From contig NZ_CP036319.1 in assembly GCF_007752935.1 (NCBI RefSeq), forward strand, positions 6,056,501 to 6,120,500: a DNA stretch of 64,000 bases. Direction: 5' to 3'. The translations under genes and the position numbers were made by a program. Within the stretch, counting starts at the first letter, position 1. Every line of letters starts with the position of its first letter. The notes under the pieces are model-generated. The model did no database searches and was not told where the DNA came from. It saw nothing but the letters and a program-made list of their open reading frames with translations. Of this stretch, positions 4,963 through 45,120 are shown piece by piece. The stretch comes from Crateriforma conspicua. GTDB taxonomy: Bacteria > Planctomycetota > Planctomycetia > Pirellulales > Pirellulaceae.

Positions 4963-6552
4963 TCAAAGGGCTGCTGGTTCAAAAGGACTGGTCGGCGGAT
5001 ACGCAATAGCGCGATCCCCAAACAGTTCCCGAAGTCTTTCAACGCTGCGCCGGACCGATTCATCCGGTTGAGTTGCCAAGTTATGGAATTCCATCGGATC
5101 GCTATGGTGGTCATACAGTTCAACACCTGAATCTCCGCCATTCCATTCCGTATAGCGATACCTTCTGGTTCGAACCGAGCGTCCCATGACTGGTGTTGCC
5201 AAGCGTTGATCCGCAGGGCGTAACACCTGCGTCACCGCGCTGCCGTTCCAATCTTCAATCAGCGGTTGATCCAACAACGGCACCAATGAACGGCCATGCA
5301 GCCGTCCGGCCAAGTCACCCAACGGCACACCGGCGGTTTGTAGACAGGTCGGAAAGATATCAACAAATTCAACGATACGATCACAACTGGCGCCGTTTCC
5401 CTTGGCTTCGGGCGAATACATGATCAGCGGTGTTCGTGCCCCTTGTTCAAAGAGCGTTCGTTTTTGCCAGACGCCGTCGTGTTCTCCCAGATGGTATCCG
5501 TGATCGGACCAAAACACGATCACAAGATCATCCCACAAGTCGGCAGCGTCCACGGCATCTAATATCCGTCCCACTTGCGCGTCAACGAATGAAACGGTCG
5601 CATAATAGGCTTGGATTGCTTTCCGCAGCGTCATTGAATCCAAACCATAGTTTGGAACGGGGCAATTGTGTGCAAACGCCGGCGTGGGGATATCGTCACG
5701 ATCATTTTCGGGTGACCAAGGAAGCCGAATGGTCTGAAGTGGATAAAGATCAAAATACTTCTTGGGTGCAATGTAAGGCGTATGGGGTCGAAAGAACCCA
5801 GCTGCAATGAACTGGGGTCGTTTTGGCACATCTTCCAGCCACTGAATCGCTTGCGTTGCAACCATCCCATCGGTCTGTTCTTCATCGGTTCCATCGGCGG
5901 CCAACCATGACAACGAAGCACTGATCTTGCGATGCGGTTCGGCGTTGAAGACGAGGTGCTCCTCACGCTTGTCTCGACCTTTTGGATTGACAACCTGATC
6001 CCAAGACACAGGATCATCAAACCCATCGGTGCCGATTGCAGCGGGAACCGCATAGTGAAAAATCTTCCCGACTCGTCGGGTTTGGTACCCCGCCTTTTGA
6101 AAGGCTTGGGGCAGGGTCACGACACCGGGTAATTCTTCGCGGAAATGACGCGCCAAGTCGTACACCTTGATGGCGTCAGGCCGCAATCCGGTCATCACCG
6201 AAGCACGCGACGGATTGCAAAGAGGCAACTGGTTATAGGCACGATCAAACTTGACCCCGCGAGACGCCAACCGATCGATGTTCGGTGTCACCGCAACCGG
6301 ATCACCGTAGCACCGAATGGCGGCGCCCAAATCGTCGACCGCAATCATCAGAACCGATTTCGGCGTTTCCGCATCCACTGTGGCCGCACAAATGCCCAGC
6401 AGCGTTCCAACCAAGATGGCCAACGGAAACTTTGCGACGCTGCACAGCGATCGGTATCCGCCAAAGCACAACGAAGGACGATCCATTTCCACGAACGGCA
6501 AGAACCATTCCTTCGTCAGTCGGCGATATCGGGAAACGAGCGTGGATGCCAT
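4963..6552 (-). CDS. secreted sulfatase, iduronate-2-sulfatase-like
   Basis: Hydrolyses sulfate esters, probably from sulfated polysaccharides outside the cytoplasmic membrane. The formylglycine site is CNPSR (Cys type, needing a formylglycine-generating enzyme), preceded by the metal-binding [16 protein letters not shown] segment and followed by VGKIFHY and [12 protein letters not shown]. An N-terminal hydrophobic segment (about residues 44-60, [16 protein letters not shown]) is a likely signal peptide with a long n-region. A GGAG lies 11 bp before the ATG at 6552; starting at the ATG at 6486 would remove the 37-bp overlap with the upstream sulfatase. It is the last gene of a three-sulfatase leftward operon. 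The substrate cannot be read from sequence. Confidence 0.9.
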
Positions 6553-40824: not shown

Positions 40825-41607
40825 CTACTTTGCTGTTTCGACGCGGTCGGCAAACAGGCGAAAATCTTCTTCGGTATCGATCCCGGGTGTCGCGGCATTG
40901 ACCAGACCGATGGCGATCCGTCGACCGGCCTGGATGGCCCGCAATTGCTCCAAACGCTCGATTGATTCCAAAACGCCGCAAGCCTGACCTGCGAACCACC
41001 CCAGAAATTCGCGGCGGTAAGCGTAGAGCCCCAGATGCTGGTATCCAAGAACCGGCGCATCCGGCCCGTCGCCATGACCGGTCCCGAATTTGCCGTCACG
41101 GTCAAACGGGATCGGGGCCCGACTGAAATAGATCGCCCGCATGGCGTCGTCGAAGACGGCTTTGACACAGGCGGGGTCCTGCATCCGCTGACGGTCGCGA
41201 ATGGGCGTGACCACGGTCGCCATCTCGGCATCGGCGTCATCGCAAAGCGCCCTCGCCACCCGATCAATGGCGTCCGGATCGATTTCAGGTTCATCCCCTT
41301 GGACGTTGACGAAGATGTCGGTTTGCGGCTGCTGCGTGGCGACTTCCGCCACGCGGTCGGTCCCACTGGCACAATCGACGCTGGTTCGGACGGCGTGACC
41401 GCCGAACGACAGGACTTCGTCGTACAGCCGATCGTCATCAACCGCCACGATCACCGGTGACGATGAATCACTGTGAATCGCCGTTTGCGACCGCATCGCC
41501 GCGTCGTAGGTGTGTTGCAGAACCGATTTACCGCCGGCACGCAGCAGAAGCTTTTTCGGCAACCGCGACGATGCCAGCCGAGCGGGAATGACGATTTGAA
41601 TCTTCAT
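40825..41607 (-). CDS. kdsB: 3-deoxy-manno-octulosonate cytidylyltransferase
   Basis: Activates Kdo with CTP for lipopolysaccharide core assembly. The 260-residue protein begins with MKIQIVIPARLASSRLPKKLL and includes VNVQGDEPEIDP, SRAPIPFDRDG and LGLYAYRREFL, all typical of KdsB. The open frame extends to 42081 across the riboswitch region, but ATG 41607 gives the exact family start. Its presence supports a Gram-negative type outer membrane with Kdo. Confidence 0.95.
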   Translation of the reverse strand: MKIQIVIPARLASSRLPKKLLLRAGGKSVLQHTYDAAMRSQTAIHSDSSSPVIVAVDDDRLYDEVLSFGGHAVRTSVDCASGTDRVAEVATQQPQTDIFVNVQGDEPEIDPDAIDRVARALCDDADAEMATVVTPIRDRQRMQDPACVKAVFDDAMRAIYFSRAPIPFDRDGKFGTGHGDGPDAPVLGYQHLGLYAYRREFLGWFAGQACGVLESIERLEQLRAIQAGRRIAIGLVNAATPGIDTEEDFRLFADRVETAK

Positions 41608-41868
41608 GGTCAAGTTTTCGTGAACAGGTCTTCGTGACGAGGCGATCGTCGGGATCAATGGTCGCAGTCGAAGTGATCCCAAGGACGCCCAATGCACGGT
41701 TCGCCAGGTGCCCCGGGTACACGCATCGTGCCCCGGGGACACGGCCGCAGGCCCGACAGTGGACATCCCGACACGTTGGTGGACAAGTCGTCGCGGTCGT
41801 TGAATTTCGCATGATCGCCATGGCTTTCGACTTGACAGTCGGTATGACGGGGTGGATAGTCCGAGCAA
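41608..41868. other. intergenic part upstream of kdsB
   Basis: About 260 bp between the divergent kdsB gene and the cobalamin riboswitch. The only notable pattern is a short imperfect direct repeat around GTGCCCCGGG at 41708-41740. Promoters for both kdsB and the riboswitch transcript should lie here, but no clear boxes were identified. Confidence 0.5.
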
Positions 41869-42150
41869 CGATTCACGGTGACGCGGTGGTCCATTTTGGC
41901 ACGCCGCGTGAACAGGGAACTTCGGTGAAATTCCGAGACGGCCCGGCCGCTGTGATCGATGGCGATGACGAACCTGGGTGGCATCCACTTTGGTGACGCA
42001 CATCAGCCGACCGGTCTTTCTTTCTGCCATTGTTTCCATCGACGCACCCGCGGGACACGTGACGAAACGTCCGCCCCGCAATCCGTTTAGCGAAACGAGA
42101 AGGCGACCGGGCGGACATCCATCGAGAGTCAGAAGACCTACCGCGAATCG
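41869..42150 (+). ncRNA. cobalamin (adenosylcobalamin-type) riboswitch aptamer
   Basis: The core elements of the cobalamin family appear in order. The closing stem P1 is CGATTC/GAATCG (41869-41874 with 42145-42150). A perfect P2 hairpin follows, ACGCGG/CCGCGT (41881-41886 with 41904-41909), then the conserved AGGGAA (41914-41919), the GGTGAAATTCC loop-stem (41924-41934), the CCCGGCCGCTGTGA junction (41942-41955), and the B12 box AGTCAGAAGACCTACC (42127-42142), which differs from consensus at two places. A long variable arm lies between. It ends 186 bp before the DUF1559 start codon. A hairpin TGCCA/TGGCA around 42229-42242 may belong to the expression platform. Confidence 0.85.
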
Positions 42151-42336
42151 GACGCATGCCTTGGCTCTTCGTCAGAACTAGGGTGGGACCTTCTTGGGCG
42201 AGGTCGGCGTTGTGAGAAGTCCACGGGTGTGCCAGTAATGGCATAGCTCCGCGATCTTCTCTTTGATTCATCGTCTTCCAGCGGTTGATTCTTCACGCGG
42301 CTCGTTCATTCGTCGCAGCGATGCGAACGGTACGCG

Positions 42337-43185
42337 ATGCCACCGGTGGGATCGGTCCGTCGGGTCGGAACGAGTGCCTTGATCCAAACCGTCCAACGAC
42401 AGCGACGACGCTTGACCGGGTTTACCTTGGTCGAATTGCTGGTGGTGATTGCCATCATCGGCATCTTGGTCTCGCTGTTGATGCCGGCCGTTCAGGCGGC
42501 CCGTGAAGCGGCCCGGAAAACCAAGTGCCAAAACCATTTGAAGCAGATTGGTTTGGGGCTGCACGCCTATCACAACACCCACGGTTGTTTGCCGGTGGGC
42601 TGTTTCGAATGGCGGTCGTATGGTGCACCGGCGACCAACCGCCAGTACGCCTGGTCGGCGATGCTGTTGCCGTTCATCGAGCAACAAAACCTACACGACC
42701 GAATCGATTTCAACGTCGCTTTCGACCATCCCGACAACGCTTCGGCTGCGGCCGAAATCGTGCCGACCTATGTGTGCCCCTCTGCCCTGCCCCGCGATGC
42801 CCAGCGAGGTCCCAGCGATTACGGCGGTCTGTTCGGCGAACGGTTGGTCGACCGCGAACCGGAAGACGGCGTGTTCCTGTACGACCAAAGGATTCGTTTC
42901 CGTGACATCCGTGACGGCTTGAGCCAAACGCTGATCATCGGCGAAGACGTCGGCGGTCCCCATTCGGAATGGATCAACGGGCTGAACGTGTTTGTTCAAG
43001 CCCACGGCATCAATGATTCGACCGCCTGGATCGGCGACAACGAAATCCGCAGCCAACACAGTGGCGGCGCGATGGTTTTGTACGCCGACGGTCATGTCGA
43101 ATTCGAATCCGAATCGATCGACAAACAGACGCTCGGAAAACTCATCACACGATCCAAGAGTGACGTGGTGTCCGATCGACTTTAA
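42337..43185 (+). CDS. DUF1559 pseudopilin-like protein behind a cobalamin riboswitch
   Basis: A 282-residue exported protein. It has a type IV prepilin-like N-terminus (GFTLVELLVVIAIIGILVSLL, with the cleavage site after the Gly at about 28) and a DUF1559 domain (QNHLKQIGLGLHAYHNTHGCLP, WSAMLLPFIEQQNLHDRI, C-terminal SQHSGGAMVLYADGHVEF). It should be processed by a prepilin peptidase and exposed outside the inner membrane. The family is greatly expanded in planctomycetes and has no known function. It is the first gene after the cobalamin riboswitch, implying repression by B12. ATG 42337 is used; TTG 42379 is an alternative. Confidence 0.85.
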   Translation: MPPVGSVRRVGTSALIQTVQRQRRRLTGFTLVELLVVIAIIGILVSLLMPAVQAAREAARKTKCQNHLKQIGLGLHAYHNTHGCLPVGCFEWRSYGAPATNRQYAWSAMLLPFIEQQNLHDRIDFNVAFDHPDNASAAAEIVPTYVCPSALPRDAQRGPSDYGGLFGERLVDREPEDGVFLYDQRIRFRDIRDGLSQTLIIGEDVGGPHSEWINGLNVFVQAHGINDSTAWIGDNEIRSQHSGGAMVLYADGHVEFESESIDKQTLGKLITRSKSDVVSDRL

Positions 43186-43240
43186 CAGCAGGTACGCCCG
43201 GAAATTTCATCCACTAACCACACATCTAGCTTTCTACACC

Positions 43241-44209
43241 ATGAACGTTTTTCAACACATTTCCCGTCGCGGATGGATTGTCGCCGGCCTTGCCTTTTTT
43301 GTTTCGGATAGCCACGCATCCACCGTCATCGATTTTGAATCGGTGCCGGTTCCGATTCAGTCAACCTCCGCGAACTCAGGTCCCTTTCCAACAGAAACGG
43401 GAACTCAACCGGGGGCGTTTGGAGGCACCGAAGTGATTTCCGAATTCACGATCGACGGGGTCACCGTGAAGAACTACTACAATCAAGATTTTGATAGCTG
43501 GCGGGGAATCGCGGTTTCGCAACGCGGCTTACCAGCTTGGTCATCGGGCAACGATCCGATGGGCGGCTTTATTCCATTGGAATACCAAAATGACAACGAC
43601 ACAGTGACCATGACGGGCAATGGTGCCGGCGGATCGTCGACCTGGATCGTCGCCTCGGGTGATGGTCCCGATTCAAGTGTGGCCGCTGGTCTGTTCACCT
43701 CTTCGTTGGAAGCCAGCAACGGCTCCTTTTTTCAATCCATTGACGTACAGATCACTCAGACCGCGGCGCATGTGGTACAGAACGGCAGCGGATTCACGGA
43801 TCCGATGGGAAGTTCGGGCGGAAACGAGTTCCTAAGCGTCCGCTTCTACGACATTTCCACCGGAACCGCCGGCTCATTCGTCGAAGTCGACTTGGCCACC
43901 TTCACCGTTGGTGATACTGGCCCCGTCCTGCTAAATGATTGGACCACCGTGGATCTGAGTGTCTTGGGCGAGGCGACCGCTATCGGTTTGGACTTTGTCG
44001 GGAGTGATTCGGGAAGCTTTGGCGTTAATCTGCCCGCATATGTCGCCATGGACAATGTCACGGTGTCAGCCGTTCCCGAGCCGTCGATGCTGGCGGTCTT
44101 GCTGGGCGGGTCGACACTGGCGGCGACGCGCCTGCGTCGGCGACGAAACGCACTGGCCGGCCAATCGGTCTCGACCGATAACCAGGAATCGGAGAAGGTG
44201 CGTGCCTGA
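43241..44209 (+). CDS. DUF4465-type PEP-CTERM surface protein
   Basis: A 322-residue exported protein. It has a signal peptide (about residues 8-26, ending at SHAS), a beta-rich domain matching the DUF4465 pattern (TVIDFESV, then FTIDGVTVKNYYNQDFDSW, VDLATFTVGDTG, WTTVDLSVLGEATAIGLDF, FGVNLPAYVAMDNV), and a C-terminal PEP-CTERM sorting signal (PEP at 279-281, hydrophobic run, Arg cluster) with an unusual 20-residue tail. It lies 55 bp after the DUF1559 gene in the riboswitch-controlled row. My recollection, not checked here, is that related proteins in Bacteroidetes bind vitamin B12 at the cell surface. That would fit the riboswitch. Confidence 0.75.
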   Translation: MNVFQHISRRGWIVAGLAFFVSDSHASTVIDFESVPVPIQSTSANSGPFPTETGTQPGAFGGTEVISEFTIDGVTVKNYYNQDFDSWRGIAVSQRGLPAWSSGNDPMGGFIPLEYQNDNDTVTMTGNGAGGSSTWIVASGDGPDSSVAAGLFTSSLEASNGSFFQSIDVQITQTAAHVVQNGSGFTDPMGSSGGNEFLSVRFYDISTGTAGSFVEVDLATFTVGDTGPVLLNDWTTVDLSVLGEATAIGLDFVGSDSGSFGVNLPAYVAMDNVTVSAVPEPSMLAVLLGGSTLAATRLRRRRNALAGQSVSTDNQESEKVRA

Positions 44210-44480
44210 GACTCCCCCGGAAATCGAAAGCACCCTGTCGCATTCGCCGGTCCCGGCATCCGGCGGGGCCGGATCCCCGGCTTCTCAGCCGCCTGTCCCC
44301 ACCGGCGTGGTTGCGTCGCCCTGCGTTCGCCAATGCCTGCTCAACGGCCAAGGGATTTGCACGGGGTGTTTTCGGCACAGCCAAGAAATCGGCCTGTGGT
44401 CGGCAGCAAGCAACCAACAGAAACAACAGATTGTGGCAGCGGCAATGCGACGCCGTGCCGAAATCCTTATCGACCGTTAA
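44202..44480 (+). CDS. DUF1289 Cys-rich small protein
   Basis: A 92-residue protein. The C-terminal half is a DUF1289 domain (SPCVRQCLLNGQGICTGCF, then RHSQEIGLWSAASNQQK) with four Cys that probably bind iron-sulfur or zinc. GTG 44202 is chosen: GGAGAAGG precedes it and the reading frame overlaps the PEP-CTERM stop by 8 bp, so translation is coupled. It is thus part of the riboswitch-controlled row. The function is unknown. Confidence 0.8.
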   Translation: MPETPPEIESTLSHSPVPASGGAGSPASQPPVPTGVVASPCVRQCLLNGQGICTGCFRHSQEIGLWSAASNQQKQQIVAAAMRRRAEILIDR

Positions 44481-44553
44481 ACTTGGCGGACGGTCCACGC
44501 CGATCCGCCACGCTTTGAACCCACTTTATCCGTTTTCCATCAGGACACTTGTC

Positions 44554-45120
44554 ATGAAATCGTCGACACCGCGTGATTCCCAGTGGCTGCCCGAATTGTC
44601 TTCCGCACGATCGGCCGTGGCCGTTGCAGCAGCCATGGTGGCGATCGGCTTGGTCAGCCGTTTCCTGCCTCACCCGCCCAACTTTTCGCCCATCGGATCG
44701 TTGGCGTTGTTCGGCGGCGCGATGTTCGCATCGCGGCGGATGGCCGTCCTGGTTCCGCTGGCTGCAATGCTGATCAGCGACATGTTCTTGGGCTTTCACG
44801 TGGCGATGTGGGCCACCTATGGGTGCTTCGCCGCCAGCGTGATGCTGGGGCGTTGGATCCGCCGGCAACCGGGCGTGATGCGAATTGCCACCGCCGGCCT
44901 GGCCAGTTCGACCCTGTTTTTTGTGATGACCAATCTGGCCGTCTGGATGAAGTGGTACGACCCGTCGTTGGCCGGCCTGGTGACCTGCTTCACCGCCGCC
45001 ATCCCGTTCTTCCAAAACACGTTGGCCAGCGACGCGATCTTCACCGTCGCGATGTTCGGTTCGGCTGCGCTGGCCAGCCGTCCGGTCACGCAACTTCGGC
45101 CGCTTGCACAAGCTGTTTGA
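44554..45120 (+). CDS. DUF6580-type membrane protein, candidate transport component
   Basis: A 188-residue protein with about five to six membrane helices starting near residue 20. Motifs FLPHPPNFSPIGSLALFGGA, PLAAMLISDMFLGFH and TNLAVWM are those of the DUF6580 family, listed as putative transport proteins and resembling substrate-binding S components of ECF transporters. Following a cobalamin riboswitch, a role in B12 or precursor uptake is plausible but not shown. The last 35 bp overlap the converging epimerase gene. ATG 44554 has AGGA 8 bp upstream. Confidence 0.7.
   Translation: MKSSTPRDSQWLPELSSARSAVAVAAAMVAIGLVSRFLPHPPNFSPIGSLALFGGAMFASRRMAVLVPLAAMLISDMFLGFHVAMWATYGCFAASVMLGRWIRRQPGVMRIATAGLASSTLFFVMTNLAVWMKWYDPSLAGLVTCFTAAIPFFQNTLASDAIFTVAMFGSAALASRPVTQLRPLAQAV

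Follow-up and report, generated by a model that had tools for sequence, protein, structure and literature searches.

A cobalamin riboswitch heads a probable B12-acquisition operon with a predicted BtuM-like transporter in Crateriforma conspicua

Introduction

The closest described systems are the btu operons of Bacteroides thetaiotaomicron (BtuJ1/BtuJ2), which are riboswitch-controlled and encode B12-binding DUF4465 proteins; according to passages in PMC12751083 and PMC13398666, these proteins are lipoproteins and their loci also carry BtuB, BtuG and BtuFCD. DUF4465 itself is described in part of the latter report as a B12-binding jellyroll (PMC13398666). A section of a 2009 survey states that BtuFCD seems to be missing from some B12 users, Xanthomonas axonopodis for example, and suggests that other systems are used (PMC2667541).

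The locus described here lies in the window, by which we mean the whole 64 000-nucleotide stretch of DNA that was analysed. It is likewise led by a cobalamin riboswitch, but its DUF4465 protein ends in a PEP-CTERM segment, it encodes a pseudopilin-like protein and a DUF6580 membrane protein, and its genome has no TonB plug match or strong FecCD match. Its four genes very probably catch and import B12, and searches of the genome for the textbook B12 importers gave no match to them.

Riboswitch and leader

The first-pass annotation had placed a cobalamin aptamer at 41869–42150 on the + strand, and Rfam supports this with a significant RF00174 match of 51.1 bits (gathering score 31.5, E 8.2e-10), the sole match in the whole 7.18 Mb genome. 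The aptamer contains long insertions; of the motifs claimed for it, the AGGGAAC-GGTGAA core is present and the B12 box is present as a variant (AGAGTCAGAAGACCTACC). Comparison with one same-genus genome gave 276/282 identical positions (97.9%) in the aptamer, versus 224/261 (85.8%) in the gap upstream of it and 798/846 (94.3%) in the DUF1559 coding region. The P3 core and a promoter-like site showed no differences from the same genome. This site, a sigma-70-like TTGACA-17-GATAGT with 10/12 matches (41832–41860, +), ends 8 nt before the aptamer; one such site was found versus a mean of 0.9 in shuffled sequence, so its position is the sole argument for calling it a promoter. The leader between the aptamer and DUF1559 (42151–42336, +) contains no terminator-like site, and the folding z-score of 42100–42380 was −0.20 relative to shuffles. 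An intrinsic terminator was thus rejected as the expression platform, and none was found in the leader by the terminator scan or by folding against shuffles.

Layout and recurrence of the gene row

Four genes follow on the + strand, as the first-pass annotation had noted. A DUF1559 pseudopilin-like protein (42337–43185; PF07596, 5.5e-54) has a prepilin N_methyl segment and an H-X9-DG C-terminal domain; it is followed by a DUF4465 protein, a predicted B12-binding jellyroll with a C-terminal PEP-CTERM (43241–44209; PF14717, 1.9e-20), by DUF1289, a small cysteine-rich protein with a GTG start (44202–44480; PF06945, 2.1e-16), and by DUF6580, a six-helix membrane protein predicted to be a BtuM-like B12 transporter (44554–45120; PF20221, 1.7e-52). 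The spacings from the aptamer onwards, taken from the sequence, are 186, 55, −8 and 73 nt, which agrees with the two short gaps and one overlapping pair first reported; the overlap is that of the DUF1289 start with the DUF4465 stop. By name, none of the genes is a textbook B12 gene, as had been remarked, but DUF4465 is already published as a B12-binding family, and the description of the row as novel-looking does not hold for it.

The same order recurs in relatives, namely in the same-genus genome G001, in G045 and in Rhodopirellula sallentina; among the examined loci it occurs in these and in G000, and nowhere else. The exact four-gene order is rare and its parts are widespread. One locus (L246) has a riboswitch followed by DUF1289 and DUF6580; behind the riboswitches of G005 and G037 no recognised gene precedes DUF6580, and in G019 it stands behind a riboswitch after a DUF1289-like match. 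Gene calls in relatives' loci are greedy open-reading-frame picks, and row counts come from profile searches, with the DUF1289 profile built on one sequence. The order-wide counts refer to 118 riboswitches (a 119th, the second match in G021, was below the cut-off and was dropped) from a search with stricter filters, by which weak riboswitches may be missed.

DUF4465

The window DUF4465 protein matches PF14717 with 74.4 bits (cut-off 25), a score that places it in the bottom three of the matches. PMC13398666 reports B12 binding by DUF4465 relatives, among which is a protein of Mucisphaera calidilacus. Mucisphaera calidilacus is itself a planctomycete. In 98 related genomes searched with Pfam, every one of the 46 DUF4465 domains has an RF00174 match on its own strand less than 10 kb upstream of it, so that each of the 35 DUF4465-positive genomes has the riboswitch link. 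Our own DUF4465 profile (43/118 rows) is broader than that of Pfam (35/98 genomes), and rows such as that of G088 count as DUF4465 by our profile only.

The window protein alone matches the solved B12 complex 9i2l at 1.8e-5, and a 17-member profile (the window protein and 16 of the 27 listed) matches the solved B12 binders 9hmu (4.9e-48), 9fct and 9i2l. When BtuJ1 residue numbers are counted manually along the alignment, the HI-loop tyrosine (BtuJ1 Y245) is retained as Tyr267 in NLPAY, invariant in 17/17 sequences, whereas the DE-loop tyrosine (BtuJ1 Y146) is replaced by Phe163 in the window protein and is Tyr in the other 16 of the 17. Given Phe163, we regard the protein as a DUF4465 member for which B12 binding is likely, judging by its sequence, but not assured. 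Its PEP-CTERM segment scores 18.8 bits in Pfam, under the cut-off of 20.7, and 19.6 bits versus a cut-off of 16 in NCBIfam.

DUF6580

The model of DUF6580 (pLDDT 89.3) consists of six helices. Its top Foldseek match is the BtuM–cyanocobalamin structure 8c7p (E 3.5e-3, probability 1.00, TM 0.66/0.69, 20% identity); ranks 2–8 are all S-component structures, 4huq among them, and no match reaches E 0.001. Kinship to BtuM found no support at the sequence level, as neither the single protein (E ≤ 1) nor two profiles (E ≤ 10) found a PDB match by sequence. Across 78 sequences, His40, Asp76, Tyr89 and Cys145 each show conservation of 90% or more; His40 falls below 90% in 33 Pirellulales sequences. The modelled fold and its contexts are best accounted for if DUF6580 is a B12 transporter of the inner membrane, S-component-like and solitary.

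Among the 98 genomes searched, 9/80 DUF6580 domain matches, in 9/75 positive genomes, are riboswitch-linked. The other 71 lack a riboswitch match in the 10 kb ahead of them and belong mostly to other clades (in a comparison that kept 77 of 79 proteins, two under 140 residues being dropped); at the 18 such loci tested no cobalamin riboswitch reached the gathering score. DUF6580 proteins without the link could differ in substrate. Within the order, 24 of the 79 DUF6580 genes are preceded on their own strand by a small protein belonging to a single BLAST cluster (gaps −38 to 428), and both tested members of this cluster are DUF4430; MetH lies upstream of DUF6580 in G025.

Going by record titles, DUF6580 is spread over CPR, Bacteroidota, Ignavibacteria, Verrucomicrobia, Proteobacteria and further groups. 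We examined the best 80 of at least 471 relatives as cross-phylum loci. Within two places of DUF6580 on the same strand, 57/292 genes are B12-linked, compared with 7/297 at places 4–7 on either strand; 42/80 loci have a B12-linked neighbour and 38/80 have no recognised one. Over the order and these loci together, the corrinoid handlers among the neighbours are BtuB-like and BtuF-like proteins, DUF71 (frequent, at 16 near places), PduO and MetH. The PduO adenosyltransferase adjoins DUF6580 in three Lysobacterales loci, two of them Pfam-confirmed, including a MAG titled Xanthomonas as well as other Lysobacterales MAGs, and one CPR genome has a B12-dependent RNR and DUF4430 beside it. A riboswitch motif screen (sensitivity 98/118; one match in 1.39 Mb of antisense) flagged nine of the 80 loci, and an Rfam run on these nine confirmed all of them, one (L284) on the opposite strand. 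Searches of viral contigs returned three relatives and one relative, and only the last was used.

Two of the conditions set for refuting the first-pass reading did not come true: the cobalamin model score is significant, and the gene order is present in relatives. The proposal of a planctomycete B12 capture and uptake system is therefore supported in its capture and uptake parts, by the DUF4465 B12 binders, the BtuM-like DUF6580 and the B12 neighbours, but not as a planctomycete-only system, because DUF6580 and its B12 neighbours occur in many phyla. DUF6580, named in no paper of the literature library searched, appears to be a B12 membrane transporter of wide distribution that has had no name until now, and is a direct candidate for the missing importer in B12 users that seem to lack BtuFCD, such as Xanthomonas axonopodis.

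B12 gene inventory

The genome encodes the B12 enzymes MetH and methylmalonyl-CoA mutase, and has no match to CbiC, to the TonB plug (PF07715) or to EcfT/CbiQ (PF02361), the last unlike a CbrT-type ECF B12 transporter. Its best FecCD match, 33.1 bits versus at least 243 for the 18 strong ones elsewhere, is not a strong one, so that neither BtuB nor BtuFCD could be recognised. In the order, 95/98 genomes lack a CbiC match and 83/98 lack a strong match to a FecCD (BtuC-type) permease, which poses the question of the B12 import route. DUF6580 is complementary to FecCD (our own threshold of >200 bits, 15 genomes) or CbiQ, with a contingency table of [[11,64],[17,6]] (p=2e-7), and of [[9,54],[15,2]] in 80 genomes at least 90% complete and at most 5% contaminated. 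G063, one of the two genomes of this smaller set without DUF6580, FecCD and CbiQ, carries CbiC; G046 lacks DUF6580, strong FecCD and CbiQ and also CbiC. Inside the window's own family the complementarity is weak ([[10,42],[3,5]], p=0.35). Its strength comes from the other families alone, and common descent may therefore have inflated it. CbiQ can moreover serve cobalt or other vitamins, which weakens the argument.

DUF1559 and uptake without TonB

DUF1559 is the first recognised gene behind 67/118 riboswitches. In a quick tree of the rows passing a length and motif filter (53/67 riboswitch-linked sequences and 27 own-genome paralogs), the riboswitch-linked copies fall into few groups, with three changes versus 22.6 when shuffled, and the window protein lies inside one such group. 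Riboswitch-led DUF1559 and riboswitch-led BtuB almost exclude each other across genomes ([[3,18],[58,5]] of 84, p=4e-11); riboswitch-led BtuB occurs in 0/35 genomes with Pfam DUF4465 versus 21/63 without it, and a DUF1559 row is found in 30/32 genomes that have a riboswitch and lack both a TonB plug and strong FecCD. The model of DUF1559 (mean pLDDT 54.7, five sequences) is interpretable only for its long N-terminal helix. The near-exclusivity leads to the idea of TonB-independent, pseudopilin-linked uptake. We put forward, as a tentative proposal that may well prove wrong, that B12 import in planctomycetes is independent of TonB: at the outer membrane, a dedicated DUF1559 pseudopilin under riboswitch control (forming a pilus or periplasm-spanning fibre) and a PEP-CTERM B12 catcher would replace BtuB, and at the inner membrane DUF6580, as a new cross-phylum family of solitary S-component B12 carriers, would replace BtuCD.

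Proposed function and alternatives

We consider it likely that the row is a B12-acquisition operon in which the riboswitch controls DUF4465 for capture and DUF6580 for import, with DUF1559 and DUF1289 as accessories. By analogy with other cobalamin riboswitches, scarce B12 would permit expression of the row, presumably as one transcript, and B12 binding would lower it. The exported, PEP-CTERM-anchored DUF4465 would catch cobamides at the cell surface, and DUF6580 would move them through the inner membrane without an ECF module, as is thought for BtuM. DUF1559 may stand in for the TonB receptor by aiding passage across the outer membrane. For DUF1289, a cytoplasmic action on the corrinoid is possible.

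It is unlikely that DUF6580, though B12-controlled, carries a different cargo, be it cobalt, a lower-ligand base, cobinamide alone or some other vitamin, and that DUF4465 is the only B12 handler. Many vitamins are carried by S-components, DUF6580 is complementary to the cobalt-type ECF part CbiQ, and cobalt transporters also occur under cobalamin riboswitches; but its neighbours are corrinoid handlers, its best fold match is a B12 protein of the S-component class and, with 95/98 genomes lacking CbiC, cobalt for corrin synthesis should be unneeded. A role of DUF6580 in sensing or assembly rather than transport seems least probable of all: sensor kinases and MreD share the S-component fold, as part of PMC11109136 reports, whereas the window protein has no further Pfam domain, is complementary to transporters and has BtuM as its top fold match.

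The riboswitch might also govern only DUF1559 and DUF4465, with DUF1289 and DUF6580 as chance neighbours, a reading suggested by the few carriers of the exact order and by the 73-nt gap before DUF6580. We think this very improbable, since those carriers include different genera, the 8-nt overlap couples DUF1289 to DUF4465, and the L246, G005, G037 and G019 loci place DUF6580 behind riboswitches. The role of DUF1559 is where an alternative weighs most, and a structural surface or secretion protein with no tie to B12, carried along through family abundance, is a possibility that we take seriously while doubting it. The genome has 55 DUF1559 domain matches, and passages of PMC10632474 call the function unknown and of PMC2754498 report higher expression of nine DUF1559 genes under cold and salt shock. 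Against it stand the leading position behind riboswitches, the clustering in the tree, the near-exclusivity with riboswitch-led BtuB and the description of PF07596 in part of the same report (PMC2754498) as a family of solute-binding proteins.

Comparison with known systems

Elsewhere in the order, the canonical BtuB–TonB/BtuFCD system is headed by riboswitches; it was not detected in the window's genome. The B12-salvage clusters of DUF71/COG2102 described in part of PMC3541065 resemble the DUF6580 loci, in which DUF71 is a common neighbour; it is absent from the window row, and in L270 it directly precedes DUF6580, the place held by DUF1289 in the window. BtuM, as portrayed in passages of PMC6072759, resembles DUF6580 in its six helices, S-component fold, B12 context and a genome with no EcfT/CbiQ match, although no sequence similarity was detected between the two. 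The cysteines differ in position: Cys80 of BtuM, invariant and a cobalt ligand, lies in loop 3 (PMC6072759, in part), whereas Cys145 of DUF6580 is at the start of helix 6. Compared by order only, both proteins have conserved His, Asp and Tyr residues in the same succession.

Riboswitch and organization of the row

The cobalamin aptamer that the first-pass annotation had placed upstream of the row, on the same strand, was recovered by the Rfam cobalamin covariance model (RF00174) at 41869–42150 (+), with a score of 51.1 bits and an E value of 8.2e-10. The match is modest in score and long (282 nt against the 189-position model), and the AGGGAA, GGTG, junction and B12-box features read there earlier are borne out by a GGGAA/GGTG core, a junction and a variant B12 box. 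A genome-wide Rfam search found no other cobalamin match in the C. conspicua genome. In a comparison of this genome with the one of the same genus (G001), the aptamer is 97.9% identical, the DUF1559 coding sequence 94.3% and the gap upstream of the aptamer 85.8%. The upstream neighbour, a CTP_transf_3 cytidylyltransferase gene (40825–41607) that we take to be kdsB, lies on the minus strand and thus the row begins with the riboswitch. A promoter-like site, TTGACA-17-GATAGT, ends at 41860 (+) and is backed by its position alone, since shuffled sequence contains 0.9 of them on average; the stretch from the aptamer to the DUF1559 gene showed no terminator-like site. The sequence strongly suggests that the leader of the row is cobalamin-controlled, which is the best-supported step of the mechanism proposed below.

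The row encodes, on the plus strand, a DUF1559 protein with a prepilin N-terminus (42337–43185), a DUF4465 protein with PEP-CTERM (43241–44209), a DUF1289 protein with a GTG start (44202–44480) and a DUF6580 protein (44554–45120). The overlap previously reported for one pair of genes is that of the DUF1289 start with the DUF4465 stop (8 nt). The gene order was sought in relatives, as had been proposed, and riboswitch rows with DUF1289 between DUF4465 and DUF6580 also occur in G001, in G045 of the same order and in Rhodopirellula sallentina (L293), where a 1956-aa DUF4465-related ORF is also seen. DUF1289 is likewise contained in the riboswitch row of G038 and sits between riboswitch and DUF6580 at locus L246; in G007 (L068) and G025 (L092) it is encoded in frame, directly ahead of the DUF1559 prepilin start, an arrangement that resembles a fusion or an extended cytoplasmic leader. 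Two planctomycete loci with equal ORF lengths (L270 and L287) encode DUF4465, a pseudopilin, DUF71 and DUF6580 (content tested in L270), so that DUF71 takes there the place of DUF1289; a riboswitch motif screen of both loci saw none. With its cysteines, DUF1289 would be suited to redox chemistry on a metal or a corrinoid.

Riboswitch-led genes in the order

The genome set comprised 98 genomes, C. conspicua and 97 others drawn automatically from its genus, family and order. Behind each of 118 riboswitches, the gene recognised first in a span of 900 nt, assigned by Pfam-named profiles from our own clusters, was DUF1559 in 67 cases, BtuB in 21, NrdA in nine, DUF4465 in eight, others (MetE among them) in nine and none in four. 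Five riboswitch rows hold DUF1559, CobQ, CobO, CobT, BtuF and BtuC. At the genome level, riboswitch-BtuB and riboswitch-DUF1559 almost exclude each other ([[3,18],[58,5]], 84 riboswitch genomes, p=4e-11), and riboswitch-BtuB occurs in 0 of 35 genomes with Pfam DUF4465 against 21 of 63 without. In a quick tree without bootstrap, riboswitch-linked DUF1559 proteins and 27 other DUF1559 copies from the C. conspicua genome mix at deep forks alone (3 changes against 22.6 shuffled). The link with absence of TonB plugs is weaker, both for riboswitch-DUF1559 ([[32,29],[7,30]], p=0.001) and for DUF4465 ([[20,15],[19,44]], p=0.01; p=0.06 when restricted to complete genomes), so that TonB receptors are present elsewhere in many genomes that have such rows, which counts against TonB-free uptake. 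A role of DUF1559 in bringing B12 across the outer membrane is possible, though less likely than not.

Cobalamin riboswitches precede ribonucleotide reductase NrdA at nine loci (L075, L076, L119, L125, L134, L138, L146, L148 and L167), with NrdB in eight of the nine and MetE lying in between in two; this is the pattern expected of B12-independent isozymes. At L118, L122, L152, L169 and others, the riboswitch row contains, besides DUF1559 and a methyltransferase, a gene resembling shikimate dehydrogenase and proteins that match dockerin weakly; a second type of surface protein perhaps takes the place of DUF4465 here.

Context and fold of DUF6580

DUF6580 gave 80 domain matches in 75 of the 98 genomes, nine of them riboswitch-linked, and none in 14 control genomes. 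A tree of 77 DUF6580 proteins contains a 55-member clade (support 99/94); those linked to a riboswitch fall outside it and are loosely grouped, with 4 changes where shuffling gives 8.6. Of 79 DUF6580 genes of the order, 24 are preceded on the same strand by a gene for a small protein of a single cluster, which is DUF4430 in both members tested by Pfam. DUF4430 is similar to transcobalamin's C-terminal domain. One paper mentions DUF4430 and transcobalamin together. Many riboswitch-less DUF6580 genes (L183–L241) show this second arrangement, frequently next to genes that from their sequence look like fatty-acid oxidation genes, and at L183 MetH precedes DUF6580. The one DUF4430 match in C. conspicua lies away from the row, at C1:2397054.

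Across phyla, among the best 80 of at least 471 confirmed relatives, 42 loci show a B12-linked gene on the same strand no more than two genes away, B12-linked genes fill 57 of 292 near places (same strand) against 7 of 297 at places 4–7 (either strand), and Rfam confirms cobalamin riboswitches in nine loci, on the same strand in eight. Neighbours were labelled by BLAST cluster, with spot checks against Pfam/NCBIfam; the families checked were Peripla_BP_2, Diphthami_syn_2 (DUF71), Cob_adeno_trans, DUF4430 and BtuB-like, the last with TIGR01779 (TonB-B12) as best family at a score under its cut-off. At L253 there is also a ribonucleotide reductase that scores above the threshold of NrdJ_Z, a model for the B12-dependent type. 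PduO enzymes adjoining DUF6580 in other phyla suggest that cytoplasmic trapping could drive uptake. The BtuF-like proteins of L243, L318 and other DUF71–DUF6580–BtuF loci have no evident signal peptide (read by eye) and may therefore be cytoplasmic corrinoid binders. At L266, the cobalamin riboswitch preceding DUF6580 has a c-di-GMP-I riboswitch (4972–5059, 54.2 bits) 2.7 kb upstream of it.

A DUF6580 model was built from 78 aligned sequences, the window's and 77 of these best 80 loci (L256 and L266, with short ORF calls, and L296 were left out); it has six helices and a pLDDT of 89.3. The first-ranked Foldseek match in the PDB is BtuM with cyanocobalamin (8c7p; E 3.5e-3, probability 1.00, TM 0.66/0.69, 20% identity). 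Ranks 2–8 are S-component chains (PanT complex, 4huq chain S, presumably an S-component, TmRibU, FolT and a biotin S-component), and CbiMQO is at rank 12. No Foldseek match attained E 0.001 and PDB sequence searches gave no match; the folds are thus alike, which does not prove common descent. We consider it quite probable that DUF6580 carries cobamide over the inner membrane without an ECF module.

B12 need and importers

CbiC, taken as the marker of corrin synthesis, was found in three of the 98 genomes. C. conspicua encodes MetH and methylmalonyl-CoA mutase as well as a corrinoid protein that binds B12; searches of its genome for CbiC, CbiQ and TonB plug gave no match, and none for FecCD above 34 bits. 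DUF6580 and FecCD/CbiQ are complementary across the 98 genomes (p=2e-7 overall), strongly outside the family of C. conspicua ([[1,22],[14,1]]) and weakly inside it ([[10,42],[3,5]], p=0.35), so that the genomes are not independent points. Among 80 genomes kept as complete, DUF6580, FecCD and CbiQ are all missing in two: G063, which has CbiC, and the near-complete G046, where searches for DUF6580, CbiQ, CbiC and the TonB plug gave no match and FecCD none over 200 bits. G046 carries cobalamin riboswitches and DUF4465, and none of the importer families searched for accounts for its B12 uptake.

Proposed mechanism and comparison with known DUF4465 proteins

In the proposed mechanism the leader would sense cobalamin and control the row, DUF4465 would bind cobamide, DUF6580 would move it over the inner membrane with no ECF module, and DUF1559 would help it across the outer membrane; support declines in that order, with DUF1289 last. 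We found no mention in the open-licence papers searched of DUF6580 by name, or of cobalamin riboswitches together with Planctomycetes, which does not prove absence from print.

Pfam DUF4465 gave 46 domains in 35 of the 98 genomes, all 46 less than 10 kb downstream of an RF00174 match on the same strand. A profile from 17 proteins (the window's and 16 of 27 listed riboswitch-linked ones) matches PDB entries 9hmu, 9fct, 9qpm, 4jqr, 9i2l and 4e9k. By hand count along the 9fct alignment, Y146 and Y245 of BtuJ1 fall in the family motifs TNTTY and NTPAY; in the window protein the latter tyrosine is retained and the former is replaced by Phe. DUF4465 probably binds cobamide. Very long proteins (1525–2027 aa frames) with two or three DUF4465 domains lie behind cobalamin riboswitches in G010, G013, G045, G046 and G055 and look like multivalent B12 catchers.

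Mucisphaera calidilacus is a planctomycete. The DUF4465 family is already known as B12-binding from PMC13398666, which describes B12 binding as a recurrent function across eight divergent members, one from M. calidilacus. The same paper gives more than 70% of the family as predicted lipoproteins, whereas all 17 proteins aligned here carry a PEP motif near the C-terminus.
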